The translations under genes and the position numbers were made by a program. The notes under the pieces were generated by a model. The model was not told the origin of the DNA, did no database searches, and saw nothing but the letters and a program-made list of their open reading frames with translations. From Heterotrichella gracilis (lineage: Eukaryota; Sar; Xanthophyceae; Tribonematales; Xanthonemataceae), in NCBI GenBank assembly GCA_032358255.1, contig JAULBX010025275.1, positions 62,001 through 126,000 of the forward strand: a stretch of DNA of 64,000 nt, written 5' to 3'. How positions within the stretch are numbered: position 1 is the stretch's first letter; every line of letters starts with the position of its first letter. Of this stretch, positions 6,295 to 59,880 are shown piece after piece.

Positions 6295-8808
6295 ATGCAT
6301 TCCGAGGGAGGCAGCTTTGCAGCAGAGTACGCCAGTGGGGTGATAGCAGGCAGCGCCAATGTCTTTTCAGGCTTTCCCTTCGACACGGTCAAAGTGCGTC
6401 TACAGACCAATCCACACCACACGTATCGTGGACCGATACACTGCTTCACGAGCATCATCCGGCATGAAGGGGTGCGCCACAGCCAGATCACTGTTGCTGA
6501 CGTTAGATTCACGCATATATTTGGCACTGACCACTCGCAATACGATGCAGGTCAGGAGCTTGTTTAGGGGCCTGTCGCCACCTCTGATAGGCGGCGCCAT
6601 AGAGACGGGGGTCAACTACATGGTACGAGCAGCGTAACTTGCCAGGCTGTCAGTGGCATCATATGCATGCATTGGTGGCCCAGATGCATTGGACAGATGC
6701 AATGGAAGTCTGCTATTAGACCACTGGGCAAAGAGAGTCGAATCATGTGATTATCTATATAGGTGTACTCCCAAGCCCTCAAGGCCATCACCGGGCGCAG
6801 CACCACGGATGACTCGGTGAGCTTGGGCCAGGTGGCGGCAGCGGCGGCAGTGGCGGGCATGCCCCTTAGCATCATCCTGGGGCCCACCGAGCTGATCAAG
6901 GTGCGCAAAATTGGCCAGGCTAATTTATTGCAGGGGCCAGGCTAATTTATTACTGGTTCATGGAGCGACAAGATACGTGACACAGCATGGTCACCGCGTG
7001 CCCGCAACCCGCACAGCTTGCTGCCTTGCCCAACCGAAACAATGCGTACATTCCCAAATGCACCATTCCCGTTCCCATATGCGCCATGTCCATCCCATGG
7101 ATACTGCATGCATCAACATCAGGTCCCCATGATGACATAAAAGGCAATGCAGCATGCAAGGCAACACAGTGCATGTTGCATTGCCACGCCATGCCAAGCC
7201 TTGTGCCATGTGCACCCACATGCAAAACAAAGCGCTGGTTGTGCTTTGCATTGCGCATGCTTCAAGCCCTGCAAGGCATGCACTGAACAACTTTAGCAGC
7301 CCATGTGCATCTCATGCCTCGGATAGGTTGCATTCTCAGATGGTCCCATGCACACTACCTCCTCCTCCAGTCATTCCTACATGCGCAACCCTCACCCGCA
7401 GTGCCGCATGCAGCTGGGCGCACAGGACCCCTCAGGATGCCACAGCCACCATAAGGCCAACGCTGTTGTCAACGTACTATAAGTTTAACAGTGAATAAAA
7501 AAATTACCATTCATAAATGACGTTACCGCACACCAATGGTTTGCCATTGCTCTATCGCATGGCCCTCGCATCCCAACAACCCCCAAACCCCTCCCCTGCA
7601 GTGCCGCATGCAGCTTGGCGCACAGGGCCCCTCGGGGTACCACAATTACTCTGGGCCAATGGCGTGCTTGCGCCAGATCGTGACTGTGGAGGGTTTCCGG
7701 GGGCTGACCAAGGGTATGGGGGCCACCATGGCCAGGGAGGTCCCTGGGAATGCAATCTACTTTGCAAGCTATGAGGTGAGGATAATATTTGGTGGAGGCA
7801 TGGGAAGGGGTGGGTACAGGCATATGCATCCAAATAGTAGCATGGATGACTATCCTGTGCAATGATGTCTCCTCTGCGATTTTGTTCGAGGAGTTAGGGG
7901 GGTTAAGACCATTTCTACCAAGGAACAGCCAAAGTTTAACTGCAACCTGATCCCACCTCCACCCCGCTCCCCCACAGGCATACCGGCGCCTCCTCCCGGG
8001 CCGCCTCACCACCCACCACCCCCACAGCACCGCCCTAGACCATGTGCTGGATGCCTCCTCTGCAATTGTGTCAGGAGGGCTGGCGGGTGTGACCATGTGG
8101 GCGGCAATTTTCCCGCTAGATATCGCCAAGACCAGGATGCAGACTGAGGTCCCAGGGTCGCCCATGTACCATGCGGGGGTGGTGCGCCAACTGCGGGCGC
8201 TGCTGGCCGCAGGTAAGGGTTTACACACATAATGGGAGTTTAAGGAACGAAAAAGTGAAAATCTCACCATGTGGGTGGCAATTCTTGCCATTTTCCCCTG
8301 AACATCGCCAAGACTAAGGTGCAGGTTGTTGTCCATGGAGGGTCATGTACCACTCAGGGGTGATGCGCCCGCTGGGGCGCTGGTGGCTGCCTGGGAGGGT
8401 TTCTTCCTACATACTAGAGTTCCTGTGGCTTCCTTAGGGGCCCCAAGCCGGCATGCGTGCGCTAGAAACCGTGGCATGGAGTATAATCTACGAGTTGGAA
8501 TACCACTGTTGTATGTAGATTGCCAGCAATACCGCACCCCTCCCTCTCATATCCTCGCCGCCTCTCATCCCGCAGGCGGCGTGCGCGCGTGGTACCAAGG
8601 CCTGTCCCCCACCATGCTGCGCGCCTTTCCAGCCAATGCCTGCCAATGGCTTGCTTGGGAACTAAGCATCAGGTGGTTCAGAGAGGATGCAGACCAGGGG
8701 GGGGATCAGCAGGTGACAGAGGAGGGGAGGGTGGCACTGGCGGCGCGGGAGGGGGCCGGTGGGGCGATGGCAGCGGCGCGGCAGGGGTACCAGGATCTGG
8801 GTCAATAA
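6295..8808 (+). CDS. Mitochondrial carrier family protein, ornithine/basic amino acid type
   Basis: A six-helix inner-membrane exchanger of the SLC25 family. Exons 6295-6471, 6551-6622, 6763-6900, 7602-7775, 7978-8212 and 8576-8808 join in frame to 342 aa. The threefold repeat is clear: the Px[DE]xx[KR] signatures are PFDTVK (about 28-33), PTELIK (124-129) and PLDIAK (233-238), each followed by a G-rich matrix-helix segment (SLFRGLSPPL, GLTKGMGATM, AWYQGLSPTM). The PTELIKCRMQ second signature resembles ornithine and other basic amino acid carriers (SLC25A15/BAC type) more than phosphate or nucleotide carriers; the substrate is inference. A Gly/Ala-rich tail of about 40 residues exceeds the usual family length of about 300. 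Two introns hold dead partial copies of adjacent exons (7392-7443, 8262-8392). Confidence 0.9.
7392..7443 (+). repeat. Decayed copy of carrier exon 4 start
   Basis: Acceptor plus exon start (CAG, then TGCCGCATGCAGCTGGGCGC) repeats the true exon 4 start at 7602 with few mismatches, displaced 200 bp upstream. The similarity and the family motif are lost after about 45 bp, so this is not a usable alternative exon. Confidence 0.8.
8262..8392 (+). repeat. Decayed copy of carrier exon 5
   Basis: This intron segment matches exon 5 positions 8088-8212 over about 130 bp (CCATGTGGGxGGCAATT, ATCGCCAAGAC, CATGTACCA), displaced 174-181 bp. It carries indels and in-frame stops, so it cannot replace the third carrier signature. 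Confidence 0.85.
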
Positions 8809-9724
8809 CGGGGGGAGTTGGGGGGTGGAGGGGTACACGTGAACACGCGGCAAGTTTTGCGGGTACATGCTATAGCAGCAGGACCATTTTTGGGGGAAGG
8901 ATGCGCTGTGACCAAGTGGGGGCCGCATGCCATGCAGTGCGCCTTGTGCCACGGCAGTGTGCTGGCCTTGGTGGTAAATGTTTTGGAACGAGGGCATTTA
9001 TGCATTACGTGGTTCCTGAACTTCAGGTGACCTCCTGGTTTGGGGGCTCCCAGATTGAGTTGTGAGTGGACTTGATGTTGATATTCAGTTTTTATTGTTT
9101 CAATCCAGGTACACAGAATTAATCTGTTAAGAATGCAATGCATGCTGCTCGAGCAGGATACAGTGAGGTAGGTGGCGTAGCTAATCCAGCCTGCCACTGG
9201 CAGCATGGTACACGGCGTCACTGTCGGGTCCAAATTAATTTTGTTTTAATCCCTCCATTTCTGCCCACACATAATGACTGTAAGCATCATGATGCTGCAG
9301 CAAGGACTGATTGTGATCATTTGACGTATGCTTCATACTTTCTACGCAATACGGCTGTCAACCAGTAACTGTAAGATAAATAATTATTACAGATTATGCC
9401 AGACACAATAATTGCCAGCTGCACATGGTACTATTGAACTGAACAACTGCATTACAATAAATGCACAACATTACAAAAATTATTACATACGCTGACATAC
9501 GACATAATAACTTGTCAACGATTCTCCGGGGTCCATGATTCTTTCTCCCTCCATACAGGACTACATAAAAGCCATTCAGCGTCCACTGTGAATTCCGTGG
9601 CAGTGCACTGCAAGGCCAAGTACTGGTGGCACGGCAATTCTTGCATCATCATTGATGCAAAGCACATTCAACATAGCTCACAAAAGTTCTGTTATTTCAA
9701 CAAAAGACGGCAACGATGGGTCAA
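8809..9724. other. Convergent 3' interval, carrier and F-box copy A
   Basis: The + strand carrier and the - strand F-box gene end towards each other. A TGTAA on + at 9370-9374 and several TTACA words (TGTAA on the - strand) between 9387 and 9490 are candidate poly(A) signals for the two genes. The region turns AT-rich from about 9230. No gene is seen. Confidence 0.4.
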
Positions 9725-11083
9725 TCAAATTAAATTGTTGTACTGCGTGCGTGCTGCTGCAGCGGTGTGCAGCCACCCAACCCACTGCTCCCGCTCCTCC
9801 CCCGCCTCGCGCACCGGATAAACACCTGGCGGGTTGATCGCAGGGGTTGCACACTGTGTCGTGCGGACCACAACACGGTCATCATCATCCACCCCCATGA
9901 TGTACTTGCCATACCGCCCCTTGATGATAATCACCTCCTCTTGTGGTGCTGCCCCTGGCTCATCCCACGGCAGACCCGTGGCCCATTCTAACATGCGCAG
10001 CTGGGGGTTGATGGGCACCTGTAGCTGCACGCTGTGCACCCAGCATGCCCTGAGCAGTGTGAGGTGCGGCATGACCGGCAGCACCAGCGGCTCCATAAGC
10101 AAAGAGACCCTCAGCTCCCGGAGGTTGGTGTGGCGGGCCAGGGCAGGGGTCGCGCCGCGCATGCCTTTCGCTGTCAAGGAAAGCGACGTCAGGTGGACGA
10201 GGTCTGGGAGGAGTCCCATGGCGTCAATAGCCTTCCCAGAATTACACCTGACCTCGAGGTTCTGTAGCGACGTGGGGAAGCAGCCAGGCGGTATGGGCAG
10301 CATCTGGCGACATTGCACAAGGAGGCTCTTCAGCTGGGTGAGCTGGCATAGGTCGGGGCTTGCACACACTCCACCGCCAGAATGCAGCCCTTCCCACACT
10401 TCCAGCCTGGTCAGCGCAGGCTGGTTGGCGAGCATTGGGACGTAGTCTGCCCCGTTCACCGCCACTGTTGCTCTGCACAGCTTGGGGAGGCATGGAAGAT
10501 ATGGCCACCAGTGCTGGGCCCTGAACCGTGGGTTCCTGACATCAAGGGTGATATCCTCCAGGTTGACCAATACTGACATGGCTGGCATGACTGGCGCCAT
10601 CTGCTCCCGGGTGCAGAGCAGGTGCAGAGCAGGCGCAGCTCCAAAGAACGCAGGGAGGTGAGGCGGAAGGTGGCCTCGAGCAGCTTCCCTGCACTGCTAT
10701 CCCGGTACGCAGCTTCAAGGGTATCGCCAGGGTATTCACCAGTCAAGTGGGTGAGCGAAGCGAGACACAATGGGCTGAGGCTCTTGAGCACCCGCAACAT
10801 CTGCTTTGGCTTGCCTTGCAGCTCTTGGAGGGACTTGGTTGCTGCCAGCCTGGGACACAGCCAGTCCAGGAACAACTTGCTGGACCTGGGACACTCCACC
10901 TCTGCCCAGGCCTCGCTTGGGCACGCCAGGACCTGGCGCCAGCGCTTGCACACCAGCTGCAGCTCTGCTTTGTAGGAATATGGAGCCCACGGGTCACGGA
11001 AACGAGTCACAGGTCCATGTTTCAGCTGCCGGAAGGGTAGCTCCCCAAAGATGCGCTGCAGCAGGTCGTCTGGAAGGGAGTCT
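9725..11083 (-). pseudogene. F-box/LRR paralogue A, 5'-truncated with one frameshift
   Basis: Member of the local F-box/LRR family: a truncated F-box (SLPDDLLQRIFGELPF), the QLVCKRWRQ and LDWLCPRLAATKSL blocks, leucine-rich repeats and the C-terminal EVIIIKGRYGKYIMGVDDDD module. The usual start and CPIH segment are missing; the frame is closed by a stop just before the F-box (near 11084). An exact 11-bp tandem duplication (GTGCAGAGCAG at 10611-10621 and 10622-10632) shifts the frame in the middle of the LRR region, splitting it into about 184 and 291 codon parts. F-box proteins supply substrates to SCF ubiquitin ligases (family knowledge); this copy is unlikely to make a full product. Confidence 0.8.
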
Positions 11084-11683
11084 TACAGAGTTGTACAGCT
11101 TCTGAACATGGATACCTACACAAAACAGCGTAACACAGATGGGCACTCTGCAAGTATATATCCCCCAGCAACTGGTCTTGCAAGTCATGACCGTCCATGG
11201 ACATAGGCACCTGGCCAGCAATCAACGCTCACCTGCGCATAACACTTGCAACTCGTGTTTCATGCATAGTACCGTGGTTGAATGCACTGTATCAGTGATT
11301 TTCCAGCATTGTTGCCATACAGATGCCTTGAATGGTTCATATACTAACCTTGACCCTATGGCTTGGAGTGCCATTGCAAAATGACGGTATTGATGACCAA
11401 TAAAGACTGAACGCTTCTGCACTGATACAGCGGTACATATCATGTATATGATAAATACCATTTGTTGCCCCTATGCCGGTACATAAACATGGGTTATGTC
11501 TGTGCTACCATTTTTAACGCCCCATTGGCACCGTAAACTGAGCTGATACTTCAAAAAGACAAAAAAACGATTGATGATGTCACCGAACGATGAGCACCAG
11601 TGCTGGAGAATGGTACCGTAAATTATATTCAAAAATGAGCATAATAGCATTGGCAACAGTGGGCAGAGAGTCACTCATATTGC
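11084..11683. other. Spacer between F-box copies A and B
   Basis: AT-richer than its surroundings, with no recognisable gene or RNA. It should contain the 3' end of copy B and whatever replaced the 5' end of copy A. No terminal repeats of a mobile element were found. Confidence 0.35.
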
Positions 11684-13041
11684 TTAGTCACTATCATATG
11701 CATTGCCGTGCGTGAATGCGGTGTGCAGCCACCCAACCCACTGCTCCCGCTCCTCCCCCGCCTCACGCGCCCAATCAGCATCTGGAGGACTGCCCTCGGG
11801 GGTCAAGAGCTGTGACGTCTGCACAATGACGTTGCTCCGGCCACCTTCTGCAAAACGCAAGGTGTAGCTGCCATGTCGCCCTTTGATGATCACCACCTCG
11901 CCTTCTGTTCCTGACATGTCCAGGTTAGGGTTGATGGGCACCTGGAGCGTCAAGCTTTCCACGTGATACACCTTGAGCCTTGTGAGGTTTGGCATGACTG
12001 GCAGCACCAGCGTCTCATACAGGTAGTTGATCCTCAGTTCTCGGAGGTTGGTGAGGCTGGCCAGGCCAGCGCTCAAGCTGTGTGTGCTTTTGCTGTACAA
12101 GGTAAGTGATGTCAGCTGGACAATGTCTGGGAGGATTGCTGCACCGTCGATGGCCAAGTGGCATTCCATGGACAAGATCTCCAGGCTTTGTAGTGATGTG
12201 GGGAAGCAGCCAGTCGGTACAACTATACAGTCGCAGCGTATGTACACGCTCTTCAGCTGAGTGAGCTGCCGTAGTGCTGTATATGTGCCAGCTACTTCCT
12301 CGCCTGAAGCTGCGTATTCCCTGTCATAGATCTCCAACGTGGTCAGCGCGGGCTGGTTGGCCAGCAATGAGCCAAAGTCTGCCCCATTTACCCACACCGT
12401 TGCCTTGGAAAGCTTGGGAAAGCATGGAAGTTCTGGCCACACGTCCTGGGTACTGGGCTGGGTAGACTGAACATCAATACAAATCCTCTCCAGGTTGACC
12501 AGTGCTGCCAAGGCTGGCAGGCAGGGCGCAAACTGCTCCGGGGAGCAGCGCTGGTACAGTTGCAAGGAGGTTAGGGAGGTGAGGCGGCAGGTGGCCCAAG
12601 CAGCTGTACGACACCATCCCCATTGAAGAAGTTGCTTGGGTCTTGGAATGTGAGAGTAGTGAGGCTAGATGGGCTGAGGCTGTTGAGCACGCGCAGGATG
12701 ACCTCCGGCTGTCCTTGCAGGTTATGGAAGGACTTGGTTGCTGCCAGCCTGGGGCAAAGCCAGTCATAGAACGACTTGCCGGAGCCTGCACAGCACATGT
12801 CTGCCCACGCCTCACTTGGGAATGCGAGGGCCTGGCACCAGCGCTTGCAAACCAGCTGCAATGTTGCTCTGTATTGAAGTGCTTGTACTCGAGTTTGGTG
12901 GTAGTCAACTATTTCAGCGTTGGGATAGCAGCGCAGGAAAAGCACACCTACGACGTGCTGCAGCACGTCGTCTGGGAGAGAGTGTATGGGGCACCTGTTG
13001 CATCGCTGGTCCAGCACTGCTGAGTTGCTGCTGCTGGCCAT
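11684..13041 (-). pseudogene. F-box/LRR paralogue B, one frameshift
   Basis: Starts at ATG 13041 (MASSSNSAVLDQRCNRCPIH), the start shared by the family, followed by an F-box variant (SLPDDVLQHVVGVLF), QLVCKRWCQ, YDWLCPRLAATKSF, LRRs and a C-terminal module (EVVIIKGRHGSYTLRF). Near 12585-12600, in the block that elsewhere reads QLLEATFRLTSL, one base is missing and the frame shifts; the rest continues to the stop at 11684. Otherwise it is full length (about 450 codons). Either a young pseudogene or a sequencing error; similar breaks in most sister copies, and none in the other genes here, favour decay. Confidence 0.82.
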
Positions 13042-14039
13042 TGTGCCTGCTGACACTTGCATGCTGAGGTGGGCGCAGTAGATCTGCATGGGCAGTGGGT
13101 GAGTAGAGTGAGGGGTAAGGACTGAAGCAACGGATATTACCCAACTGTAAAACTCCCAGTAACACCTGACAGAGGAAGAACAACCGTATGACGTTTGAGC
13201 AAACCATCTGCATGCACCTGCCCAGTTTACGCACACAGTTTCAGGCTTTGGAGCTTGTTGACTACGGCTTGGCAAGGTTTATCTGGAACTTTCTTCCTAT
13301 TGTCGTTGGGCAAGTGGGTTCCCACCTGGGGTTTGCACCGCCAAGCTCGGACCTGGGTCAGGTGCCACTCGGTGCAGCAAGTTGCACAGGAGGTTGAACG
13401 CACCCACTTCACGTTGGTACCCCAAACTGCTCTTGGGTTGAGGGCACCAGACGAGTCGTGTCAAAGTAACTGATTTGAGTTTTTGAAAGCGTGGAAGAGC
13501 GTTAAAAGAGGTGCTGGGCCTGTAAACACCCATTTCAAAGAGTCAGCTGCAAAGGCAGCCGAGTCCTCGCAGGCAGGCGAGGCAACAATTGCAGCTCATT
13601 TTTGGGTGAGTTTTTTCAACTCAAAAGTGCAGTTGCGATGTACTTATACCAACGTTGTACACTCGACAACGTCTCACAACATCTTGCAGGCTCCATCAAA
13701 CTCGCGCCGTATGAGGTGAAGGTACATGAAACTACTAGTGCCGCGAAGTGCTGCTGCTGACTTCACCACCACTGAGTCTCACCACTCTCAGACTTTTGAA
13801 AAGTTTGAAGTTACAGCCATTGTATCTGATTGCGCACCAAAGCCATGTCACCCAGTGGCTGGTGGCATGCAGTATTGCACCTGCATGGCAATGGGACACG
13901 CTTCCTCTTGGAGGCTGCAGCAAGTGTACCTTTCTGAGCTTGGCACCAACACAAAAAATTGATGGGAATAGGTGCATCGATGGGTCATGGCCCATGGGTG
14001 CAAAAATAAAGCAATACATATACCCAGTTCCACAAAGTT
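13042..14039. other. Spacer between F-box copies B and C
   Basis: No gene is recognised. It holds the presumed 5' flank of copy B and 3' flank of copy C. Short open frames here lack family similarity or splice support. Confidence 0.35.
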
Positions 14040-15404
14040 TCAATCTTCACGGCGTCCACTCTCGGCTGCGGTGCGCAGCCACGCAACCCAATGCTCAAGC
14101 TCCTCCCTCCCCTCGTCCACCCATTTAGCATCAACTGCCCCGCGAGGCACGCGCTGTGATGTGAGAACCACCGCAAAGTCATCCTCGTCCAGATCCATGC
14201 TGTACCTGCCATATTGCCCCTTGATGATAACCACCTCGTCTTCTGGTGGGCCCAGATCCCCTGGCGGGTCCCTGGTCCACTCCAGGCGCAGGTTAGGGTC
14301 AATCGGCACCTGGAGCTGCACGCTCCATGTGTGGTACACCACGAGCTGTGTGAGGTTGGGCATGGCGGAAAGCTTCAAGGGCTCAGGAAGCCATCCGACA
14401 TACAGCTTCTGGAGGTTGGTGAGGCTGGCCAGGGCAGGGGTCACGCGCTGCAAGCCTCTACCAAGTAGGTCAAGTGAGGTCAGGTGGACGAGGTCTGGGA
14501 GGAGTGCCATGCAGTCGATGTCCATATAAGAACCACACTCGATGTCCAGCTCCTGTAGTGATGTTGGGAAGCAGCCAGGCGGCATGGCCATCTGGTAGCA
14601 TTCCACATGCATGCTTGTCAGCTGAGTGAGATGACGCAGTGAGGCGCTCACGCCCACTTCCTCAGGAAACCCTCCTCCAACAAGTTGCAAGTGGATCAGT
14701 GCAGTCTGGTTGGCCAGCATTGAGCCGTAGTCTGCCCCATTCACCACCAGTGTTGCGTCACATAGCTTGGGAAGGCAGGGGAGCTCTGGCCACCAGTGAT
14801 GGGTACTGGGCTGTGGGCTCCTGACATCTAGGTGTAGATATGCCAGGTTGACCAGTGCTGCCATGGCTGGCAGGCTGGGTGCCGCCTGCTCCGGGGTGCA
14901 CCACAGGCGCAGTTGCAAGGAAGTCAGGGAGGTGAGGCGGAAGGTGGCCTCAAGCAGCTGACCCACACTCTCCCCGCGGTAGGCACCGTTGCCAGCACTG
15001 TCATACTCAGGACTGAGAGAAGTGAGACACAATGGGCTGAGGCTGTTGAGCACCCGCAGCATGTCCTTTGGATTGCCTTGCAGGTACTGGAGAGACGTGG
15101 TGGCTGCCAGCCTAGGGCACAGCCAGTCAAGGAAACCTGACCGTCCTGGCTGATCACACCGCATGTCTGCCCAAGCCGCACTTGGACCCGCGAGGGCCTG
15201 GCGCCAGCGCTTGCACACCAGCTGCAGCTCTGCTTTGTAGCGTTCTTTCTCGACGGATGCTGTGAAAAGTGGGTTGGATGCCTCCCGTGTGATGAAAGAC
15301 AGTTCACCGACGATGCGCTGCAGTAGGTCATCTGGGAGGGAGTGTATGGGGCACGTGTTGCGCCGCTGGTCTAGCACCACCACTGGGCTGCTGCTGCTGG
15401 CCAT
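14040..15404 (-). CDS. F-box/leucine-rich repeat protein, paralogue C (intact)
   Basis: The only family member in the window with an unbroken frame, single exon, 454 aa from ATG 15404 (MASSSSPVVVLDQRRNTCPI); an in-frame ATG 18 codons upstream exists, but the MASSS start is shared by sister copies. Residues about 17-40 are the F-box (IHSLPDDLLQRIVGELSF), the SKP1-binding module of SCF ubiquitin ligases. Conserved linker blocks QLVCKRWRQALAGPS and LDWLCPRLAATTSL follow, then about eight irregular leucine-rich repeats (LPDLVHLTSLDLLGRGL and similar), which in F-box/LRR proteins bind the substrate. The C-terminal about 75 residues carry the family hallmark EVVIIKGQYGRYSMDLDEDD and a Trp/Glu-rich end. 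The substrate is unknown. Several paralogues in tandem suggest a fast-evolving recognition family. Confidence 0.88.
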   Translation of the reverse strand: MASSSSPVVVLDQRRNTCPIHSLPDDLLQRIVGELSFITREASNPLFTASVEKERYKAELQLVCKRWRQALAGPSAAWADMRCDQPGRSGFLDWLCPRLAATTSLQYLQGNPKDMLRVLNSLSPLCLTSLSPEYDSAGNGAYRGESVGQLLEATFRLTSLTSLQLRLWCTPEQAAPSLPAMAALVNLAYLHLDVRSPQPSTHHWWPELPCLPKLCDATLVVNGADYGSMLANQTALIHLQLVGGGFPEEVGVSASLRHLTQLTSMHVECYQMAMPPGCFPTSLQELDIECGSYMDIDCMALLPDLVHLTSLDLLGRGLQRVTPALASLTNLQKLYVGWLPEPLKLSAMPNLTQLVVYHTWSVQLQVPIDPNLRLEWTRDPPGDLGPPEDEVVIIKGQYGRYSMDLDEDDFAVVLTSQRVPRGAVDAKWVDEGREELEHWVAWLRTAAESGRRED

Positions 15405-16484
15405 GTGGCTTTTGGCTGCTACTTCTGGGCTGGGTGAGTGGGTGGAGTGGGTCTGCACGGCAGTGAGGGTGGGTGAAAGGTGTGTGTCAGGACCTGAAGC
15501 AATGGAAACTACCCAAAATTCTAAACCCTAACGTGTTGTAGATTGATTTATAACCCAGCTCTGCCCTTTTTAGACACAAAGCTATCTTCATACTAAAAAG
15601 ACTCCCGACCGCGTCGGGCATCTTGAACAACCTAAGGGTACCCCCTATGAGGTCGTCGATGACATCTTTGCTGCCCTTGTGAATGTCATACACGCTATGT
15701 TGTTTGCAACCATGTATGGTTACCATAGTGAAAAACCTTTCCTAGGGCACTACTGCCAAGCTCAAAGGGCTGAAACGCACTAGGGTACATAGATGCATCA
15801 CAATCAGATGCATGCATATATGGGAATGCATGCACATACTGTACGCTTGCCACCCACCTGCAGGTTATCCACCCAGCGACTGCTGACCCGTTGCAATATG
15901 CTTCGCTGCTTCGGCTTGAAACCTGGGTGCTGAGGGGGCGAGGCGTGTGCGAGGCGCGTGAAGTTGTCTAGACTGTGCAGAGGCTTGCGCAAAGAGGCAG
16001 GCAAAGACCAAAGATAGTTAGTGTAGCTTTAACAGCCACAAGCAAGATATCATAGCAATACAAAGACAGTACTTCCTGCTGTAGCTGCGAACTAGGGCAG
16101 TTTCTGGCAAGCAATGATGTACTGCTATTGTTAATTTACTGCATTTACTGTTATATTTCCTGTAAATATTTTCCTGTCAGGTGGGTGACATGCAACGTTC
16201 AAAAGTGCACTCTCCACTGACTGGCAGCAAGTGTACATGATAAGCTTGGCAGAAACACTACCCAGAAAACCATCGTATGGGAATAGGTGAGCATGCCTCA
16301 ATTTCAGGTGGGAACGGAGTACCAACGCCAGTCTTTTATTGCCAATTAAAAAACAAGGCATCAGGGCATGCAAGGTATCGCCCTTCAGACGGCCCAGTTC
16401 TAAGATATACACAATGCATCATGCGCCAACATAGCCTGCAATACAAACAACAACAAAAACCACAAAAGCAAACAGTCTCAACCA
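15405..16484. other. Spacer between F-box copies C and D
   Basis: No gene is recognised. A stretch at about 15540-15730 reads as a 79-codon - strand frame, but neither the product nor any repeat family was identified. AT-rich segments lie near 16030-16200. Confidence 0.35.
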
Positions 16485-17832
16485 TTACTCATAGCGTCCA
16501 TCTTTTGCTTCCTTGTGCAGCCACGCAACCCAGTGCTCCCGCTCCTCCCTCGCCTCCCCCACCCAATCAGCATCTAGCGGAGCGTCCCCGGGGGGCGGGC
16601 AGTGTGACGCGCTGACCACCACACAGTCACCTTCATCCAGACCCATGTTGTACACGCCATATCGTCCCTTGATGATGAACATCTCCCCTTGGGGTCCTGG
16701 TTCGCCTGGTGGTTTTTTGATCCATTCGAGCCGCAGGTTGGGGTTGATGGGCACCTGCAGCTGAACGCTGTGTGCATGCCATGCCCTGAGCTGTGTGAGG
16801 CTGGGCATGACCGGCAGCACCAGCGGCTCGCCCAGCCAGGCGACTTTCAGCTCCCGGAGGTTGGTGAGGCTGGCCAGGGCAGGAGTCAAGCCACAGAAGC
16901 CCTCACCATCCAGGGCAAGCGATGTAAGATGGACCAGGCCCCGGAGAAGCCCTGTGCAATCCACCGCCAGTGTTGTCATCATAGATTATGTCCAGGCTTT
17001 GAAGTGACGTGGGGAAGCAGCCAGGCTGAATAGTCAGTCTTGGGCATTCTATGTCCACACTCTTCAGCTGGGTGAGCTGCCACAAGGAGGTGCTGACAGC
17101 CATTTGCGCACCTGAATACGTCCCTTTGTACAGGTGCAAGCTGGTCAGTGCAGGCTGGTTGGCCAGCATTGAGCCGTAGTCTGCCCCATTTATGACCAAT
17201 GTTGCGTCACAAAGCTTAGGGAGGCTGGGAAGCTTCGGCCACCAGTCCAAGGCACTGAGCTGGGCATTATTGACCTCTAGCTCGAGCCTCTCCAGGTTGA
17301 CCAGTGCTGACATGGCTGGCAGGCTGGGCTCTGCCTGCTCCGGGGTGCAGCACAGGCGCAGGTGCAAGGAGCAAAGGGAGGTGAGGCGGAAGGTGGCCGC
17401 AAGTAGTTGCCTGGCACTGTCATTCTGGTAAGCACTGTTCCCGACATTGTTGGACTCCTCAAAACCAAGAACAGCGAGACACGATGGGTTGAGGCTGTTG
17501 AGGATGCGCAGTGTCTCGTGTGGCTCCCCTTGCAGCTTTCCGATGCACTTGGTTGCTCCCAGCCTGGGGCACAGCCAGTCCAGGAACCCTGGTCGACCAG
17601 CACAGTCACACCACATGTCTGACCATGCCGCACTTGGACCCGCGAGGGCCTGGCGCCAGCGCTTGCACACCAGCTGCAGCTCTGCTTTGTGGAAATTCCC
17701 TCGTGGGTACTCGTGGTAGGAGAAAGGTAGCTCCCCAAATATGCGCTGCAGCAGGTCGTCTGGGAGAGTGTGTACTGGGCACCCGTTGGACCCCTGGTCT
17801 AGCACCGCTGGGCTGCTGCTGCTGCTGGCCAT
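16485..17832 (-). pseudogene. F-box/LRR paralogue D, one frameshift
   Basis: Starts at ATG 17832 (MASSSSSPAVLDQGSNGCPV). Intact F-box (HTLPDDLLQRIFGELPF), QLVCKRWRQALAGPS, LDWLCPRLGATKC, LRRs, then a frameshift near 16970-16985 in the LRR that follows the CFPTSLQSLDI block. The remaining 3' part is open to 16485 and keeps the C-terminal module (MFIIKGRYGVYNMGLDEGD) and the EREHWVAWLHKEA end. Apart from the one frame break it is full length, so decay is recent. Confidence 0.83.
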
Positions 17833-22070: not shown

Positions 22071-27148
<5,078 letters not shown>

Positions 27149-49805: not shown

Positions 49806-51041
49806 GGGCTTTGCCAGTTTCTTTGCCAGTCTTGCATGTCATTTAACTGCTTCAATTTACGCTCAGGCTATGACAATCACTGAGTGGCTTCGTCTCCTGA
49901 TTGATCACACCATGCATGGAGAGGTTTGCCTAAATTGGCACCCCACACCACCTACCACAGTGCCAACCACAATGTGCCGCACCGATTGTGATAATTTGAG
50001 GGAACAAGGTCTGCTGGCAGCATGCTACAGGAGTGTGATGCCCTCCCCTTCTTTGGCCCATGGCACAAGCCCACGCGCAGCGCCTGCGACATGTCCAATC
50101 CTTAAAGGCTGCGCAATTATGGACAGGCTGCGCAATTATGGACTCCAAGGTGAACATGATGTTCCAGCCTATGCTGTACCAGTACTGCTTGGACTGTTAC
50201 AGAGGACGTTGTGGTTATCACATTGCCAAGCCAGTGCTCCTTGAAGCTTGGTATCACGACGATATGTGCAAGCCAATGGGTAGTTGTACAATGAACTACA
50301 GTTATTTATCATACAAAAGCCTTTTTGTCTGTACTCATTTCACCCCCTATCATGATGTTTTCACCAAAAATTACCTACATGGTCTATTGTGATAATGCAT
50401 GCATAAGGTCGTACCTCAAGACTCTCTATTTGGTACTAAAACTTTGTAACACTCAGTGTACAGTATCAAGACCCTTCGTACACTGTCACAGTAGTGGACA
50501 CCACACTGTAACCAGGAAGAGATACTGCAAAGCTCTCCATGTCCTCCAGGTTCCCAGCTTCTTTGAAAAGCAAGTTGCTAGTCACTGAGTCTGCAATCTA
50601 GTTCCAGGAAGGTGGGTGAAATAGGATGGCATTGCAAGTGCTTACATAGCGTCTTTTGTAATACTGTTAGTCTCCTGACAGGCGTTGTCTATGTTGTAGC
50701 TACCAATTGCAGTACACAGAGCTCACCCTGGCCAGAATATGATGCCCTTCCATTGGGGCCCATTTAACGTGCTTAGGGTTGTATCGTGTAATCCTTCAAG
50801 ATACCCAGAAGGCTCCTCAGTATGATAACCAAAACGTCAGTTGTAGTCACTACAACGTTTGTAGCTTCAACCTGGAGTCCAGGTTTCCGAGGCTGATTTA
50901 CCTAGCTCAGCTGTAGCTACCAGTCCCTTCTGCTGCTGGCTGTATGCTTCATGACCATGCTCCTAGCTGACTTTTCCTCTGTGCACTGCAGATTGACACA
51001 GCAGCCAACACACCATGCAGCAGACTGAGTCAGCAAGTGCC
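49806..51041. other. Spacer before F-box copy F
   Basis: No gene is recognised. A short palindrome (GTTGTAGTCACTACAAC) lies at about 50840-50856. The right end should hold the 5' flank of copy F. Confidence 0.35.
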
Positions 51042-52766
51042 ATGGCCAGCAGGAGCTCAGCAGTGCTCAGCCAACGGTGCAACAGGTGCCCCATACACTC
51101 CCTCCCAGATGACCTGCTGCAGCGCATCTTTGGCCATCTGCCCTTCATATGGGCAAGATACGACCCAGGCGCCCCGTACGGGTTTAAGCGGCTGTATAAA
51201 GCACAGCTGTACCTGGTATGCAAGCGCTGGAGCATCGCCCTCGCAGGTCCAAGTCAAGCATGGCCTGACATGGAGTGTTACTGGCTCTCCAACAGCTACA
51301 GCAAGTCATTTATGGACTGGCTGTGCCCCAGACTGGGAGCAGCCAAGTCCATCAATGGTCTGAAACTTCCAAAGGCGGATGACAATTCAGAGGACATGCT
51401 GCGGGTGCTCAACAGTCCTAACCCATCTTGCCTCACTTCTTTCGAGCTTCAATACTCACAAAAGGCTTACCAGGGGGACAGCGCTGCGCAACTTCTTGAG
51501 GCCACCTTCCGCCTCACCTTGCTGCGCTCCCTGCAACTGTGCCTGCGCTGCACCCCGGAGCAGGTGACGCCCTACATGCCAGCCATGTCAGCACTGGTCA
51601 ACCTCAAGATGATTGAGCTTGATGTCAGAAACCCAGAGCCCAGTACCCAGCACTTGATACAGAACTGCTTGTGAATATCATAAGCATTTAGGGTTTTATT
51701 TAGTAAGTATATTATTATACCAAATATAGGATGTTACCAAGGCACCATATTCTTATATGAGCGAATCTACTTATTCTTTCGCTGTGTGCTCTTGACGTCA
51801 GTTCTTGGGTACGCTTGCTACCCATCACTCCCACACGCTTGTAACCATTACTTTCTAGTCTTGGACTCGTGTGGTATTTAAATACCCCAGCCTATTATAC
51901 GAGTGGTGCCGTATCAGCACTGGTGGCCACAGCTACCCTCCTTTTCAATGCTTTGCGAAGCAACAGTGAGGGTGAATGGGATAGACTACATCTCAATGCT
52001 TGCCCACCAGCCTTCACTGACCAGGCTGGAACTGCATGAACCTTCTGGCCAGGATGCGGGAGTGGGCGTGAGCCCCTACTTATCGCAGCTCACCCAGCTC
52101 CAGAGCGTGTGTATCACATGCAGCAAGATGGATATACCGCCTGGCTGCTTCCCCACCTCATTAAATGACCTTGAGATTGAGTGTGGTTCTGATATGGCTA
52201 TTGATGCCATGGCGCTTCTTCTGGACCTTGTCAGCCTGACGTCGCTTGGAATGGATGGCAGAGGCATCCGGCGCTTGGCCCTTGCTTTAGCCACCCTCAC
52301 CAACCTTGCGACGCTGAGAGTATGCATGTTGAGGGAGCCGCTGGTGCTGGATGCGCACATCGCCTCCACCCTCCAGTCATTGGACGTCTCCTGGCTGATT
52401 GAGCCCCTGGTGCTGCCAGTCATGCCCAGTTTGACAAATCTGAGGGTGTGTTATGTGGGCAGCGTGCAGCTGCAGGTGCCCATACACCCCTCACTGTCCC
52501 TGTGGGAGTGGGCCAGTCAGCCACCCATTGATGGCGATGCTGGTCCAGCACCACAAAACGAGGTGATCATCATCAAGGGGCACCACGGCACGTATGTTAT
52601 GGGAGTGGATGATGATGACTGTGTTGTGGTGAGCACAGAACAATGCCTGGACCCCGAGGACACTCTTCCAGATGACGATTGGGTGTGCAAGGCAAGGGAG
52701 GAGCGGGAGCAGTGGAATGGGTGGCTGCACCAGGAAGCACCATCACGCATACTTTGGGACGCGTGA
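51042..52766 (+). pseudogene. F-box/LRR paralogue F, split by a solo LTR
   Basis: Starts at ATG 51042 (MASRSSAVLSQRCNRCPIHS) with F-box (SLPDDLLQRIFGHLPF), LVCKRWSIALAGPS, MDWLCPRLGAAKS and LRRs. The coding sequence is interrupted after PEPSTQH by a 262-bp element (51655-51916) and resumes at WWPQLPSF, continuing open to 52766 with LRRs and the C-terminal EVIIIKGHHGTYVMGVDDDD module. The LRR near 52330-52420 has an internal duplication (MLREPLVL, then WLIEPLVLPV) adding about 26 residues, unlike any sister copy. Apart from the insertion both halves are open, so the insertion may be what silenced it. Confidence 0.88.
51655..51916. mobile_element. Solo LTR of a retrotransposon
   Basis: A 262-bp AT-rich block with terminal TGATAC...GTATCA inverted ends (TG...CA), flanked by an exact 5-bp target duplication GCACT (51650-51654 and 51917-51921). 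This is the structure of a solo LTR left after recombination between the two ends of an LTR retrotransposon. No internal region, coding part or second LTR is present. The family (Ty1/copia or Ty3/gypsy type) cannot be told. The exact target duplication suggests a fairly recent insertion. Confidence 0.9.
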
Positions 52767-53933
52767 TTTGACTACCATCATGGTTATATAACATATATGC
52801 GTCAAGTAAATGCCATACCACAGCTCACAGTACTAATGGTGCGTTGTTGCTGGCCCCAATGGCATTTGAGCAAGCAGCTGTGCCAGCATTGAATGTAGCT
52901 CACACCCCTTGGTGCGTACGCTCTTGACATTCGTAGGCATCATGCTGCTGCAGCACATACAATACAATCCTGACAGGCATGCCTGCAGTGTTCAGGTGTT
53001 CAATGTGCTAGGTGTAAACATTAGATGGAATTCCTACCAGTTTTGATGGACCTTCGTGAACTGAGTCAGCGGCTGTCTCACAGACAGTTCTGCATGGTTG
53101 TCAAACCTGATGAGGCACGTGCGCATTGAGTACTAGCACTGCCAGTGGCCACCGTGGCAAGGTCTTTTGGCAGAACACCAAGTTTAACATCCAATACAAG
53201 TTTAACATCTAGATGGGCCTGAGGCATCAGATCTTCAATGCAGTGATTGCTGAAAGAACAACCCAATGTGATTTGCTGTGTAGTGCTGGGGTTTAATTAT
53301 TATGTTCATACGGTAAACTATTTTGAAAAATATCACTGCCACAGCCATCACGGTATGGAATCTGGCCTAGCCTTGATGTAAAAAATGGCAGTTTCCCGTA
53401 TTTTTGCTAAAATCCTGCTGACTTTCCCTTGGCCATGCAGGCGCCTGAAATCATTAGATAAATAGCCAATGCTCCGCTAGCAGCACTGCACGTTTCTTCA
53501 AGGTAACCACCGCGTTCCACACGCTACAGCAACCGTCGCCACTCAGTTTCACACTGCAGCCGCGGAGCAAGAAGTCTGTAAGTGAGGTGGGTGGCTGTGG
53601 CTGGTACCACTGAGTGCAGCGTTGGCCTGATGTGCACATGGCTATGCACGCCAGAGATATGTGTCGATACTCGCGGCAGTTTCCGGATCGGCAGCAGTTT
53701 CATCAAGTTTGAAACTGGGTTTCCAACTGGCCGGGCGGTGTTCAACCTAGTCGTATCTCGTGAAGAACTTTAGGGCGCTGTGGTGTACCTTGTCCAAAGA
53801 TATTTACCAAGTTACTGGGCCTTGAAAACTGCACTCATGTTTATGAGGGGGGGAAGATGGCTTTATGCACTGCACACCACTCTTGGTCTAGAGCCTTGTA
53901 CTGGGTTCAAACTGATATAACACTGGGTGTTTA
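52767..53933. other. Spacer between F-box copies F and G
   Basis: No gene is recognised. Short frames near 53450-53770 on both strands are unsupported. No clear repeats. Confidence 0.35.
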
Positions 53934-54059
53934 ATGTTGAAAATTTCCATACTGGACGTTTGCTTGCTCTTGACACCAGGCTTCACTCTCCCACCCTGCA
54001 GAGCTTCACTACAGGCTATCAGCTCAGCATTCAGCCCAGCACCCAACCCAGAAGGCGCC

Positions 54060-55515
54060 GTGGCCAGTAGGAGCAGCAGCCCAACGGTGCTGGACCAGCA
54101 GTGCGAGGGGTGTCCCATACACACCCTCCCAGACGACCTGCTGCAGCCCATCTGTGGGCTAGTGCCCTTCATTTGGCCAGAATCATGCGTTATGGGGACC
54201 CCGGACGTGTTTTCCAGGGTGCAGCTGCAGCTGGTGTGCAAGCGCTGGCGCAAGGCCCTCGCGGGTCCGAGTGAGGCATGGGCAGAGGTGTGGTTTCACA
54301 GCTTCCACAACGACAACAAGTTGTTCCTGGACTGGCTGTGCCCCAGGCTGGCAGCAACCATGTCCATCCAATGCCTGGAAGTCTTCACCACCAAGGCCAA
54401 GCACATCGAGTCTGGCGAGTTGCTGCGCGTGCTCAACAGTCTCAACCCAGCTTGCTTCACTTCTCTCAATCAGCTAGGTAACGGGTATTCCAGCTACTGC
54501 ACCCAAGACTTCTATGGGGACACTGTGGGGCAGCTGCATGAGGCCATTTTCCGCCTCACCTCCCTGCGCTCCTTGCAATTAGTCATCCGCAGCTGGCCGA
54601 ATCAGGTGGAGCCCAGCCTGCCAGCCATGTAAGCACTGGTCAACCTGGAGAGGCTGGAGCTTGATGTCAGATACCCACAGGACAGCCTGGAGCACTGGTG
54701 GCCAGATCTTCCACCCCTTCCCAAGCTGACCCACATAACACTTACCGTAAATGGACCGTTTATGGTGTTGCAGTAATTCTACGGTCCATTTACATGTGTA
54801 CACAGCATGATGGGCATCATGGTAATGCTGAATGGCACTGCATGCGCAACAGATTGGGAATTTGTCATGCGTACTGCATTAGGGTGTCATGTGATATTGG
54901 CAGGGATTCTTAGACAAGTGGTGGCACATTTTCATGCACATAGCATGACTAAGAGCATTGGTAAGGTCGATAGGGCTCCTTGCGCACAGGATTTGGGTTA
55001 CAAGGCAAGGCCCGTAGGTAAATGGTGAGGATTATGTCGACATGCTGGCCAACCAGCATGCGCTGACCAGCCTGCGAATTGATGAAGGGTTCACCTTTGG
55101 CCCTGAATGCTTCTATGAGGATGGAGTGGGCGTCAGCCCTGACCTGTGCCAGCTCACTCAGCTGAAGAGCGTGCATGTGGAAGTCTACTGCATGGAGGTA
55201 CCGCTTGGCTGCTTCCCCACGTCACTGGAAGACCTTGAGCTCTGCTGCACCTCGGATATGGACATCAACTGCTTGGAGCTCCTCCCAGACCTCGTCCACC
55301 TGACCTCCCTGAGGCTCACTAATGGGGTACGGATCTTGAACCCTGCCCTCAAAAGCCTCACCAACCTCCGGGAGCTGAGGCTGTCGCAACTGAGGAAGCC
55401 ACTGGTGCTGCCAGTGCTACCCCACCTCACACTACTCAGCGCTTGGGAGGTGCAGAGCGTGAAGCTGAAGAAGCCTACCAATCCCAAGTTGCAATTGCTG
55501 GAGGCCCCATATTGA
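54060..55515 (+). pseudogene. F-box/LRR paralogue G, heavily broken
   Basis: Family homology starts at 54060, where the usual ATG is GTG (VASRSSSPTVLDQQCEGCPI); the only in-frame ATG is 42 codons upstream at 53934. F-box (HTLPDDLLQPICGLVPF), QLVCKRWRKALAGPS and LDWLCPRLAATMS follow. A stop (TAA) interrupts at SLPAM (54630-54632), where sister copies read on. A 263-bp element sits at 54755-55017 with an 8-bp target duplication. After it the frame resumes (EDYVDMLANQHALTSL) and ends at 55515, without the C-terminal module of the family. Four independent defects make this an old pseudogene. Confidence 0.88.
54755..55017. mobile_element. 263-bp insertion element with 8-bp target duplication
   Basis: Flanked by GTAAATGG at 54747-54754 and 55018-55025; removing the insert and one copy gives the expected family reading (VNGEDYVDML), so the boundaries are firm. 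No terminal inverted repeats, coding capacity or A-tail are seen. Its core (54799-55017) recurs at 56099-56333. An 8-bp duplication fits hAT-type transposition, but the lack of terminal repeats leaves the class open (non-autonomous DNA element or SINE-like). Confidence 0.75.
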
Positions 55516-57148
55516 ACTACTTGATGTACCAGGGTGCACTGTTTGATGCGGACCATTGTGCTAATAGCATCTTCAAGGCGGTCATGCATACTGCACCTGG
55601 TGGTCCAGTGATCGCCAGTACTACCCTTTTATAGTGGTGGCGGGCTGTCATTTTTGGTGTTCCGTCTTTCTCAATGACATAGCCTACTTAGGGGAATACA
55701 GAGGGGTCTTGCTGTGCACCTTCAGTTCCTAAATTTGGAGTCGAGCGTCTGGGTAAGCTTGCCATTACAAGCCCATTGATATTGCTTGGCCAACAAGGCA
55801 TTGCTTGTGATGCTATTGAACGTGGTTTTAGACATTCAGTGTGTACCATATTTTATACATTATTCAGCAGTGGCTGAGATTTCAAGACCTAAATTTCAAC
55901 CAAACAGTGTCACAATTTAATCAATATGTGCACCACGAATACTTGGAGTGCAGATTTCCGCAAGCAGCTGTCGCTAGATCTAGATTTCCATGGCAGGGAT
56001 CGTTTGCAAGCTTTGTAGCACTTGATATAATTGCAAGTCAAACGGGCTTAAGCAGGAATACCAGGCATGACAAGTGGCAATCCTTCAAGTGCTTACAAAC
56101 ACAGCATGAGGGCATCATGGTAATGCTGAATGGGGTTCTATGCGCAACAGGTTGGGAATTTGTCATTTGCCATACATATGTGCAGTGACTGCATTAGGGT
56201 GTCATGTGAGATTGGCAGATATGTTTAGGCAAGAGGTGGCACCTTTCCATGCACACAGCATTACTAAGCGCATTGGTAAGGTATGTGTGGCTCCATGCGC
56301 ACAGGATCTGGGTTGCAAGGCAAGGCCAGTAGGACAGTTCCGACCAATTTTAGCCCGCACATTCCAGGGGCACGTTTCTTTACACGGATGTCGTTGATGT
56401 GCTCCCCTCTTGCATTTTGCAATTAAAGTATCATGTGCAGCATCAGGGAATTATACCATAACACGTTAGGCTTTGATTTTACTTTCGTACACATGGTGTG
56501 CTTTGGCAAGCTTGAGCACTACCTGCAGAACCTCTACCAAAGGCACTGGCATGTGTATTGCCTATAGACCAAGGGAATGTATTGGTGTTGCTGAGAAAAC
56601 AAAGCATGGGTCAACTGTGACAGTTGTAGAACTTCAAAAAAGGAAAACATTTTTTGTTTGCTGTCACAATAGGGCCCTATTTTTATTGTGGGACCACCGC
56701 GTACATTTTCAGTTCTATTTGCCAGGCTTACAGTTAAGGTGCTTCATACCACCTCGTAATTCAAATTGCAGCAGGGAAGCAATCTGCAGGTCAACAGGGG
56801 CTGGACACTGCCAGGGCCAAGGTGGGTGCCAGGCATGGACACAATGGATGCATGCATTGCACATGCCACTGTCAGACAGACGTGATATTCAGACCCAGTG
56901 GTGTGTATTAGCTTGCAAGCAGTGTAAAGCAGACGGTCCGTTCTGATACCACGTCCTTTAACGGTAACAGGGGCCCTGGCATGCATGGCATTCATGGTAT
57001 GGCGTGCTTTCAGAAGTAGCCAGTTTGTAGCAACAACGCTTATACCAGGAACTGGGTCTGTATGATGGGTGTTCTTGCTACAGATAGTGACTGACACTCC
57101 TACTGCCTTGCAGACTAACAGTGCTGCCCAGCCATCTCAGTGAGTGCC
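55516..57148. other. Spacer between F-box copies G and H
   Basis: No gene is recognised. It contains the second copy of the short dispersed repeat (56099-56333). The remainder is AT-richer without further structure. Confidence 0.4.
56099..56333. repeat. Second copy of the short dispersed repeat
   Basis: About 235 bp matching 54799-55017 (ACACAGCATGA, GGCATCATGGTAATGCTGAA, GCATTAGGGTGTCATGTGA, GGCAAGGCC), same orientation, with a small internal insertion. Both copies end at the same AAGGCCxGTAG, while their 5' ends differ, suggesting a fixed 3' end and variable 5' end. Confidence 0.8.
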
Positions 57149-58520
57149 ATGGCCAGTACCAGAAGCAGCCCAGCGGTGCTGGAGCAGCAGTGCAACAGGT
57201 GCCCCATACACTCCCTCCCAGACGAACTGCTGCAGCGAGTTTTTGGGCAACTACCGTTCAATTGGAGGATAGACTTGGCACACAATAAGTCGAGGTGTTG
57301 CTACAAAGCAGAGCTGCAGCTGGTGTGCAAGTGCTGGCACCAGGCCCTGGCGGGTCCAAGTGAGGCTTGGGCAGTTGTTTTTTGTACAGTGTTCAGCAAG
57401 CCGTTCCTGGACTGGCTGTGCCCCAGGCTGGCAGCAACCCAGTCCATCCAATGCCTTCCGAAGGTGGATGGTAACCCAGAGGACATCCTGCGCGTGCTCA
57501 ACAGCCTCAGCCCAACTTGTTGCACTTCTTTTATTCAGCTGACTCTCACTCCTGATGCCCATGACCCAGCATACGCTTACCAGGGAGACAGTGCTGGGCA
57601 GATGCTTGAGGCCACCTTCCGCCTCACCTCCCTGACATACCTGAAACTGTGCCTGCGCTGCACCCCGGAGCAGGCGGCACCCAGCCTGCCAGCCATGGCA
57701 GCACTGGTCAACCTGGAGGACATCACTTTGGATGTGAGGAGTCCACAGCCCAGTACCCAGCACTGGTGGCCAGAGCTACCCTGTCTTCCCAACCAGCGAG
57801 GCAACAGTAAATATGAACGGGGTAGACTATGTCCCAATGCTAGCCCACCAGCCTGCGCTGACCAAGCTGGAAGTATGCAAACGGGTCATCTATGAGGGAG
57901 TGGGCTTGAGCCCTTCCTTGTGGCAGCTCACTCAGCTGAGAAGCCTGGATGTGGACTGCAAGCAGATTGCTATCCCGCCTGGCTGCTTCCCCACATCACT
58001 ACAGGACCTTGGCCTCTCCTGTGGTTCTGGAAGAACTTTTGATTGCATGGCGCATCTCCCACACCTCGTCCACCTGACATCACTTGGCGTGGATGGTGAA
58101 GGCATACCGCGCTTGGCCCCTGCCCTAGCCATCCTCACCAACCTCAAAGTGCTTGATGTCTACTCGCTGAGGGATCCGCTGGTGCTGCCGGTCATGCCCA
58201 GCCTCACAGCGCTCGGTGCCTGGGATGTGCGCAGCGTGCAGCTACAGGTACCCATCAACCCCAAGCTGCGCATTTCAGAGTGGGCCACTAATCCACGGAA
58301 GGTACCAGGACCGCAAGATGAGGTGATTGTCATCAAGGGGAGGCATGGCACATACAGCATGGGCGTGGATGCAGCTGACCTTCCTGTGATGCACATATCA
58401 CAGCGCCTGTCCCTCGGTGACACTCCGCCGGATGCTGACTGGGTGCGCGAGGCCAGGGAGGAGCGGGAGCAGTGGATTGAGTTGCTGCAAACTGCAGCAG
58501 CAGCACGCACACGCTGGTGA
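57149..58520 (+). pseudogene. F-box/LRR paralogue H, one frameshift
   Basis: Starts at ATG 57149 (MASTRSSPAVLEQQCNRCPI), F-box (HSLPDELLQRVFGQLPF), QLVCKCWHQALAGPS, LDWLCPRLAATQS and LRRs up to WWPELPCLPN. Near 57793 a small indel, where sisters read LPKLCDATVVVNG, shifts the frame; the remaining 235 codons are open to 58520 and include the LRRs and the C-terminal module (EVIVIKGRHGTYSMGVDAAD, EREQWIELLQTAAAAR). Otherwise full length; a young pseudogene or an assembly error. Confidence 0.83.
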
Positions 58521-59412: not shown

Positions 59413-59484
59413 TAGCCATTGGCATTGGCATTAAATGACAAACCTTGCCAACCTAGCCATTGGCATTAAATGACAAACCTTGCC
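59413..59484. repeat. Tandem repeat, two units
   Basis: Two copies of AGCCATTGGCATTAAATGAC followed by AAACCTTGCC, 42 bp apart. The first copy carries an extra GGCATT. Confidence 0.8.
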
Positions 59485-59816
59485 TTGCATGCATCAGCGC
59501 CCAGTGTAGCCATTTTTGGTCAAATCTGTTGCCATGATACATATGTAGACTCAGCATTGGTCTGCAGGTGGGGGCAGGTGCCAGGCAGGTGAGTCTCAAG
59601 CCAGTGGCAGCAATGGCATGCACGTTGTTCTAGGCTGACCTAAGCAGCCCCTGGGCTAGCACCGGTAGCATACGCACAGACACTGCCTTGTCCAGGAAAC
59701 TGCAATATTAACATTGGGTAATCAGCTGACTTGCCATGGCAATCCACCCTTCAGCCTGCACCCCCCCGCATACACTACCCTAGGCCAGGGTAATCAGACC
59801 CTAAACTAAGGTAATC

Positions 59817-59880
59817 AGCCCCTCAGCCTGCACACCCGCAGGAGCTCCTCCGCCTGCGCCTGCCTGGGCATGCACACTAC
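59817..59880 (-). repeat. Decayed copy of the protease gene's coding end
   Basis: On the - strand the segment reads MPGQAQAEELLRVCRLRG and a stop, nearly the same as the true C-terminus (MPGQAQAEERLRACRLRG). It lies 102 bp beyond the true end, in the 3' flank. A shorter third trace (TCAGCCTGCACCCCCCCGCA) is at about 59753-59772. Confidence 0.88.

Follow-up and report, generated by a model that had tools for sequence, protein, structure and literature searches.

Decaying partial copies of neighbouring exons in Heterotrichella gracilis introns, probably left by recurrent short tandem duplications

We analysed a 64,000-base stretch of a contig of Heterotrichella gracilis (hereafter the window), where roughly one intron in three contains decaying partial copies of a flanking exon, mostly lying about 180 bases from their source. 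The window has a GC content of 54%, with values of 62.5% for the exons and 52% for the introns of our gene models; for comparison, Coccomyxa C-169 has 53% GC and introns averaging 240 bp (PMC3446292). These models come from a home-made gene finder run without RNA, and were then split and edited by hand, with the products checked. Among these products, Pfam recognised katanin p80 (WD40 and con80), a mitochondrial carrier, an S41 protease, a class-3 lipase, a proline dehydrogenase with EF hands and a histidine kinase (HisKA and HATPase), the receiver domain of which was scanned as a separate piece. A further product, read without the copies described below, aligns continuously to solved malic enzymes over residues 6–465; the pieces read from relics had been removed by hand, with the family in mind, before that alignment. 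Searches with six peptide patterns each, using a katanin query against genome contigs and a malic enzyme query against viral contigs, confirmed no relatives within a reach restricted to close relatives.

We compared each of the 55 modelled introns with its two flanking exons, giving 110 comparisons, for which the non-adjacent (mismatched) exons of the window served as the null. A few doubtful terminal exons were kept out of this set, as were the small exons called by the gene finder in or next to relics, namely 43136–43177 and 47138–47182 in the histidine kinase and 25716–25740, 25496–25518 and 24279–24314 in malic enzyme; one retained exon end in the histidine kinase (47561) is probably 33 bp too long. 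In this comparison, which the initial annotation of the locus had proposed and which was run here within the window, 20 of the 110 alignments, distributed over 18 of the 55 introns, outscored every mismatched exon. The upstream exon was the source in 12 of these and the downstream exon in eight. Own-exon scores of at least 20 were reached in 17 of the 110 comparisons in direct orientation versus two of the 110 with reverse-complemented sequence. Self-BLAST of the window (word 7, score ≥ 36, pair centres at most 600 bp apart) recovered 25 direct and no inverted local repeat pairs, the one-sided orientation being that expected of small tandem duplication. The members of 23 of these pairs are 71–90% identical, with one further pair at 97% and one at 95%. 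A second scan of ungapped diagonals at offsets below 1500 bp, which is independent of the gene models and counts arrays more than once, returned 42 direct versus four inverted events.

The duplicated segment usually takes in part of an exon. Of the two copies, one belongs to the modelled exon and its partner lies within the intron, except in the protease, where the partner follows the stop codon. The initial annotation had listed 19 places at which exon ends or starts appeared to be repeated together with their splice junctions, and 18 of these are indeed local duplications, 17 of them including exon sequence. The item at 41300 in the histidine kinase falls away (16 of 18 positions match, with a score of 14 that is not above chance). 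That at 38041–38215 in the proline dehydrogenase gene is a genuine duplication, but copies no exon: it consists of two tandem units (38046–38247, + strand, periods of 118 and 87 bp) lying wholly within the intron 38021–38267. The broader proposal, that short tandem duplication across exon borders affects unrelated genes and that the intronic copy decays neutrally, is borne out by the self-BLAST, by the own-exon comparison and by the codon positions presented below.

In the carrier gene (+ strand), the acceptor and exon start of 7602–7775 are copied at 7389–7444 (offset 200 bp, acceptor AG kept), and the exon end 8092–8212 plus 10 intronic bases at 8266–8402 (offset 177 bp, donor GT lost). Two more copies in this gene came to light only here: one at 7856–7912, derived from 8043–8096 (offset 186 bp), and a weak copy of 8585–8679 at 8903–9015 (offset 327 bp), whose score of 18 is above all nulls and whose z is the second-lowest among the 20 significant copies.

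The malic enzyme gene (− strand) has exon ends 22680–22731 and 24488–24540 copied at 22518–22569 (offset 162 bp) and 24314–24368 (offset 172 bp, donor GT lost), respectively, and exon starts 23810–23864 and 26140–26184 at 24003–24058 (offset 192 bp, acceptor AG kept) and 26443–26486 (offset 303 bp, acceptor lost). A tandem array of exon end and intron start occupies 25429–26006 with 2.5 units of 222 bp, the donors being retained in both intronic copies. The intron 23430–23644 holds a chimera (23478–23630), in which a copy of the upstream exon (offset 134 bp) and a copy of the downstream exon (offset 186 bp; 23571–23630, also new here) are joined at a common GGGC. This intron resembles the outcome of multi-source patch repair or of two duplications followed by a deletion.

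In the histidine kinase gene (+ strand), the two tandem structures of exon end plus intron start are a near-complete second unit of 44697–44856 at 44872–45020 (period 175 bp, donor GT kept) and an array at 45892–46392 with 2.5 units of about 197 bp. The exon end 42379–42441 with the following GTG is copied at 42568–42633 (offset 189 bp), the last 33 bases through the donor GTG being identical to the source and the remainder less so; the exon end and donor 45247–45285 recur at 45358–45395 (offset 111 bp). Exon starts are copied at 43128–43185 (from 43258–43315, offset 130 bp, acceptor lost) and, as a weak copy added by the present analysis, at 42008–42068 (from 42191–42249, offset 182 bp). The best-preserved copy comprises the acceptor and start of the receiver-domain exon (47303–47380), repeated over 78 bp at 47122–47199 with an offset of 181 bp and 97.4% identity. 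A much older, decayed third copy of the same exon start was read by eye near 46930–47040, part of it being detected by self-BLAST (46987–47038 versus 47178–47230); two or more events thus seem to have left their mark on this intron. Finally, 47447–47552 has a decayed copy at 47627–47744 (offset 186 bp). Homology of the receiver domain and the sequence GCAG/GTGAG at 47528 suggest that the true exon end is 47528, against the modelled 47561, in which case this copy holds an exon end and an intron start.

The remaining cases are fewer. The last codons, stop codon (59917–59919) and 3′ flank of the S41 protease gene (− strand) form two tandem 102-bp units at 59772–59974, and a previously unlisted copy of its exon start 60957–61024 lies in the upstream intron at 61139–61205 (offset 182 bp). 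The proline dehydrogenase gene adds a weak copy of the exon 34634–34672 at 34843–34882 (+ strand, offset 210 bp), likewise unlisted before. In katanin p80 (+ strand), the exon end (to 2762) and donor are repeated downstream in the intron within 2747–2885, with a period of 68 bp. The units 2747–2825 and 2815–2885 make two copies, and a third fragment is visible by eye; only 16 bp are exonic. The katanin item of the initial annotation thus stands as a local duplication but is weak in the exon-only test (p = 0.039).

The offsets between copy and source are strongly biased: 14 of the 20 significant copies lie 160–210 bp from their source versus 10 of the 76 alignments with p > 0.2 (Fisher p = 1.5 × 10−6), a test that left out the 14 of 110 comparisons with p between 0.03 and 0.2, three of which fall within 160–210 bp. 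In the scan free of gene models, with arrays counted repeatedly, 14 events had offsets of 160–200 bp, four of 100–160 bp and six of 200–300 bp. Within the 160–200 bp group, copy length varies between about 44 and 160 bp and spacer length between 144 and 15 bp, yet the period remains constant. This constancy, despite varied copy and spacer lengths, points to an original tandem unit of near-constant length instead of insertions of free length. A head-to-tail repeat of the whole unit is visible at four places, with full units at 25429–26006, 45892–46392 and 59772–59974 and nearly full ones at 44697–45020; in many others, the exon part alone is recognisable and the intron-side similarity is weak or absent. 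Beyond the copies themselves, a two-sided comparison of 13 of 14 pairs, one having been left out, gave greater similarity towards the intron than towards the exon (mean score 10.9 versus 4.8, p = 0.014; random pairs average 7.4 in the same extension score). This asymmetry would be expected if the homology stops at a breakpoint in the exon but has decayed in the intron.

At codon positions 1, 2 and 3, the copy departs from its exon at 28 of 264, 33 of 265 and 50 of 262 sites, respectively, in 13 of the 16 pairs, some of which share an exon; the other three were omitted as two frames are open in each. Such a pattern would be predicted when neutral copies are compared with exons under constraint, the copy drifting everywhere and the exon changing mainly at silent sites: the intronic copy has drifted neutrally, and the exon has stayed constrained. 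The splice dinucleotides point the same way, being intact in 11 of the 16 copies examined (two of the intact donors were read two bases to the right of the modelled coordinate) and lost as GT or AG in five, where drift at the 11.5% divergence per site seen at positions 1 and 2 would leave about 12.5 of 16 intact.

Taken together, the copies are probably what remains of short tandem duplications that have arisen repeatedly, typically in units of about 160–210 bp, in a genome whose introns are little longer than that. Each unit would start with a pair of staggered nicks or strand breaks separated by roughly one nucleosome repeat; fill-in of the overhangs and end-joining would then produce a direct repeat of the segment between the breaks, and selection would spare just those duplications that splicing or a stop codon renders harmless. 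Repeated events and later deletions could account for the arrays at three places and for the chimera in the malic enzyme intron 23430–23644. The net outcome would be longer introns with dead splice sites, many still with an intact GT or AG. As the protease 3′ case involves no splicing, the duplicating process itself looks general, with selection deciding where copies stay. Nor is any targeting of splice junctions needed, since, given these introns, a random 182-bp unit has 2.0 times as many placements across a single exon edge as within the intron only, and copies with a constrained partner should remain recognisable for longer.

Several observations weigh against so simple an account. First, six of the 20 offsets fall outside 160–210 bp (111, 130, 134, 222, 327 and 393 bp), and periods of 68, 102, 118 and 303 bp are seen among the other genuine duplications. 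Second, the intron-side extension is individually above chance in just four of 13 pairs (P ≤ 0.016), in three pairs (22518, 23502 and 61139) it begins with 14–32 bp of exon, and one pair (44697/44872) is above chance on the exon side (P = 0.012). Third, the copies at 7389, 24003, 26443, 42568, 43128 and 23502 have no significant intron-side similarity, though their exon-to-copy identity of 85–92% predicts that the intron part of these abrupt copies should be alignable. Likewise, 47122–47199 is 97% identical to its exon, with adjoining intron parts that are badly diverged. Fourth, the events cluster by gene, as detailed further below. The abrupt intron-side ends and the 47122–47199 case mean that tandem duplication with neutral decay needs a supplement in the form of later replacement, indels or gene conversion from exon to relic. 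Gene conversion, later replacement or the insertion of a non-tandem patch could each explain the misfitting copies; hints of gene conversion come from 47122–47199 and 42568–42633.

The unit length invites a comparison with chromatin. In Chlamydomonas reinhardtii, the nucleosome repeat of bulk chromatin is 178 bp, with 156 and 160 bp at two loci (PMC3225300). The match of the unit to about one nucleosome repeat is suggestive only, as the value is that of C. reinhardtii and may not hold for H. gracilis. A bolder extension, which we put forward tentatively and regard as possible but on the unlikely side, is that linker breaks flanking one nucleosome yield one-repeat tandem duplications as a main driver of intron lengthening in this alga, with the exon at times re-copying the relic by gene conversion, such that the introns would be long-lived archives of past exon sequences.

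The strongest competitor to recurrent tandem duplication is a local templated insertion of non-tandem type, in which break repair inserts a patch of 40–80 bp from within about 200 bp and the spacer is never duplicated. The sharp-ended copies with unrelated spacers suit this explanation, as does the malic enzyme chimera with its patches from both flanks united at GGGC. There is also precedent in rice, where insertions are tandem, partly tandem or, when non-tandem, drawn from less than 200 bp of the break, often from multiple sources, according to a review (PMC7407515). However, none of the 25 local pairs is inverted, complete tandem units exist, the intron-side similarity exceeds that on the exon side, and the period of the 160–200 bp group holds across its whole range of copy and spacer lengths. 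We, therefore, judge templated insertion rather unlikely.

It is improbable that the copies are functional, serving as alternative or decoy exons under selection. In favour of this, most splice dinucleotides survive, exon calls of the gene finder fall within or beside five copies, and 47122–47199 differs from its exon at only two of 62 exonic sites, both third positions. Yet the codon-position pattern overall fits neutral copies, the five losses of GT or AG among 16 are near the expectation from drift, and the malic enzyme product reads continuously without the copies, with the caveat that its pieces were removed by hand with the family in mind. Whereas mutually exclusive or alternative exons would be whole, with both splice sites and coding constraint, the copies are partial and differ from their sources at all codon positions.

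Less probable still is that the duplications created the introns, as the initial annotation had suggested and as in the Rogers model, where each intron is a duplicated exon segment bounded by a duplicated AGGT. The histidine kinase intron 45274–45510 has a gapped donor/acceptor-context score of 15, above the 99th percentile of the null (13.5), and the lipase intron 31023–31240 (donor AG/GTGTGGTGCCTGAG, acceptor AG/GTGTGGTGCGCGAG) scores 12, below that percentile. The contexts of the lipase intron are identical at 14 positions over 16 bp, and these two introns are weak candidates for intron birth. However, just two of the 55 introns exceed the 99th percentile, and one of these is a 79-bp katanin intron with overlapping test windows, an artefact. 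The offset equals the intron length in none of the 20 significant comparisons, the closest being 186 versus 202 bp and 210 versus 229 bp; nor, apart from at most one or two doubtful introns, do donor and acceptor lie at homologous points. The suggestion, thus, finds no support, and no intron here is demonstrated to have arisen in this way. Least credible of all is an assembly artefact of unmerged alleles or contig ends printed twice, which the pairs at 97% and 95% might recall, but which sits poorly with 71–90% identity in the other 23, with the many unrelated spacers and with a period shared among pairs.

The distribution of the copies among the genes is markedly uneven. In the exon-only test, they occur in four of four introns of the carrier, four of six of malic enzyme, eight of 12 of the histidine kinase, one of eight of proline dehydrogenase, one of six of the protease, none of 10 of the lipase and none of nine of katanin. 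Thus, three genes (carrier, malic enzyme and histidine kinase) account for 16 of the 18 affected introns, and 0 of 5000 permutations matched this heterogeneity. An even spread of the process is therefore wrong, and its description in the initial annotation as genome-wide is not supported as worded, the relic frequency differing strongly between genes inside the window. Introns with a copy are longer, with a median of 355 bp (n = 18) versus 280.5 bp in those without (n = 36; Mann–Whitney p = 0.008; one of the 55 introns, with an internal duplication, was omitted). This agrees with the earlier claim that duplication lengthens introns but falls short of proof, as long introns offer more room for copies and cause and effect are, thus, not separated.

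The introns are also rich in telomere-type heptamers (rotations of TTTAGGG), with 6.8 per kb compared to 1.8 in other or intergenic DNA and 0.5 in exons. The window contains 175 of them, whereas 20 simulated sequences averaged 44, with example intronic sites at 2777–2783, 30352–30361 and 42741–45347. Heptamer tracts number 25 in 7308 bp of relic introns versus 17 in 10,441 bp of relic-free introns, about a twofold difference in density. A link of relic ends to telomere-like motifs is not supported: seven of 40 edges lie within 30 bp of one, with a permutation mean of 8.0 (p = 0.76).

Eight F-box/LRR-like gene copies fill 9725–20680 (− strand) and 51015–58520 (+ strand) as two inverted clusters. 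They are 67–73% identical over alignments of at least 1 kb and apparently have few introns; for the two of them that were scanned, Pfam matches stayed below the curated cut-offs. The clusters contain none of the 25 local repeat pairs. At 54724–55112, one copy is split by an insert of about 290 bp, whose repeat is 81% identical to 56099–56333; an inverted pair, GTAAATGGACCGT/ACGGTCCATTTAC, lies near the repeat, in the left part of the insert, which may be a small transposable element. Another copy has a 260-bp insert (51655–51914) absent from its paralogues, and its repeat region is extended by a further insertion of 66 columns.

Tandem duplications that span exon borders are already known from single genes. 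The potato RdRp case (Ma, Lan and Niu 2016, PMC4974935) likewise involves a tandem unit composed of an intron's 3′ portion and the beginning of the following exon, splice site included. It is a single recent event that gave one gene a new intron, whereas the window holds many decayed events, spread over several genes, at donors as well as acceptors, within introns that already existed and with a preferred size. Intron gain of the Rogers type, from exon segments bounded by AGGT, shares the short tandem duplication of coding genes tolerated through splicing (PMC3443670). Unlike in that process, the splice sites here do not occupy corresponding positions in the two copies, bar at most one or two doubtful exceptions. 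The small tandem duplications from staggered breaks in mammalian cells (PMC8355091) and rice (PMC7407515) are likewise direct, short, local and derived from paired breaks, those of rice being explained in the review by paired asymmetric nicks and end joining. The rice insertions span 10–1000 bp, and the excerpts of the staggered-break sources contain no counterpart to the exon-border peak at 160–210 bp. Introners, too, make algal introns grow and are linked to nucleosome linkers, but they are dispersed transposable families (PMC9860276), whereas the sequences here match their own neighbouring exon. Self-BLAST of the 64-kb window (E < 1 × 10−3) revealed no introner-like dispersed intron family, the similarity beyond 600 bp being almost confined to the F-box-like genes. 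In the mainly open-access literature covered, we found no report of such a density of events, of their occurrence at both sides of exons, of a decay series from arrays to faint relics or of the size preference.

The finding also has a bearing on annotation, as the gene finder placed exons within or beside five of these relics. To our knowledge, little has been documented on how introns grow other than by transposon insertion. If one in three introns of ordinary genes carries relics of tandem duplications with a preferred unit of about 180 bp, the evolution of intron length would become readable event by event, with the exon as a fixed reference against which neutral decay can be measured within the same gene. 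If this is true, duplication rates could be compared between genes, and a mechanism of chromatin-linked breakage would become testable.

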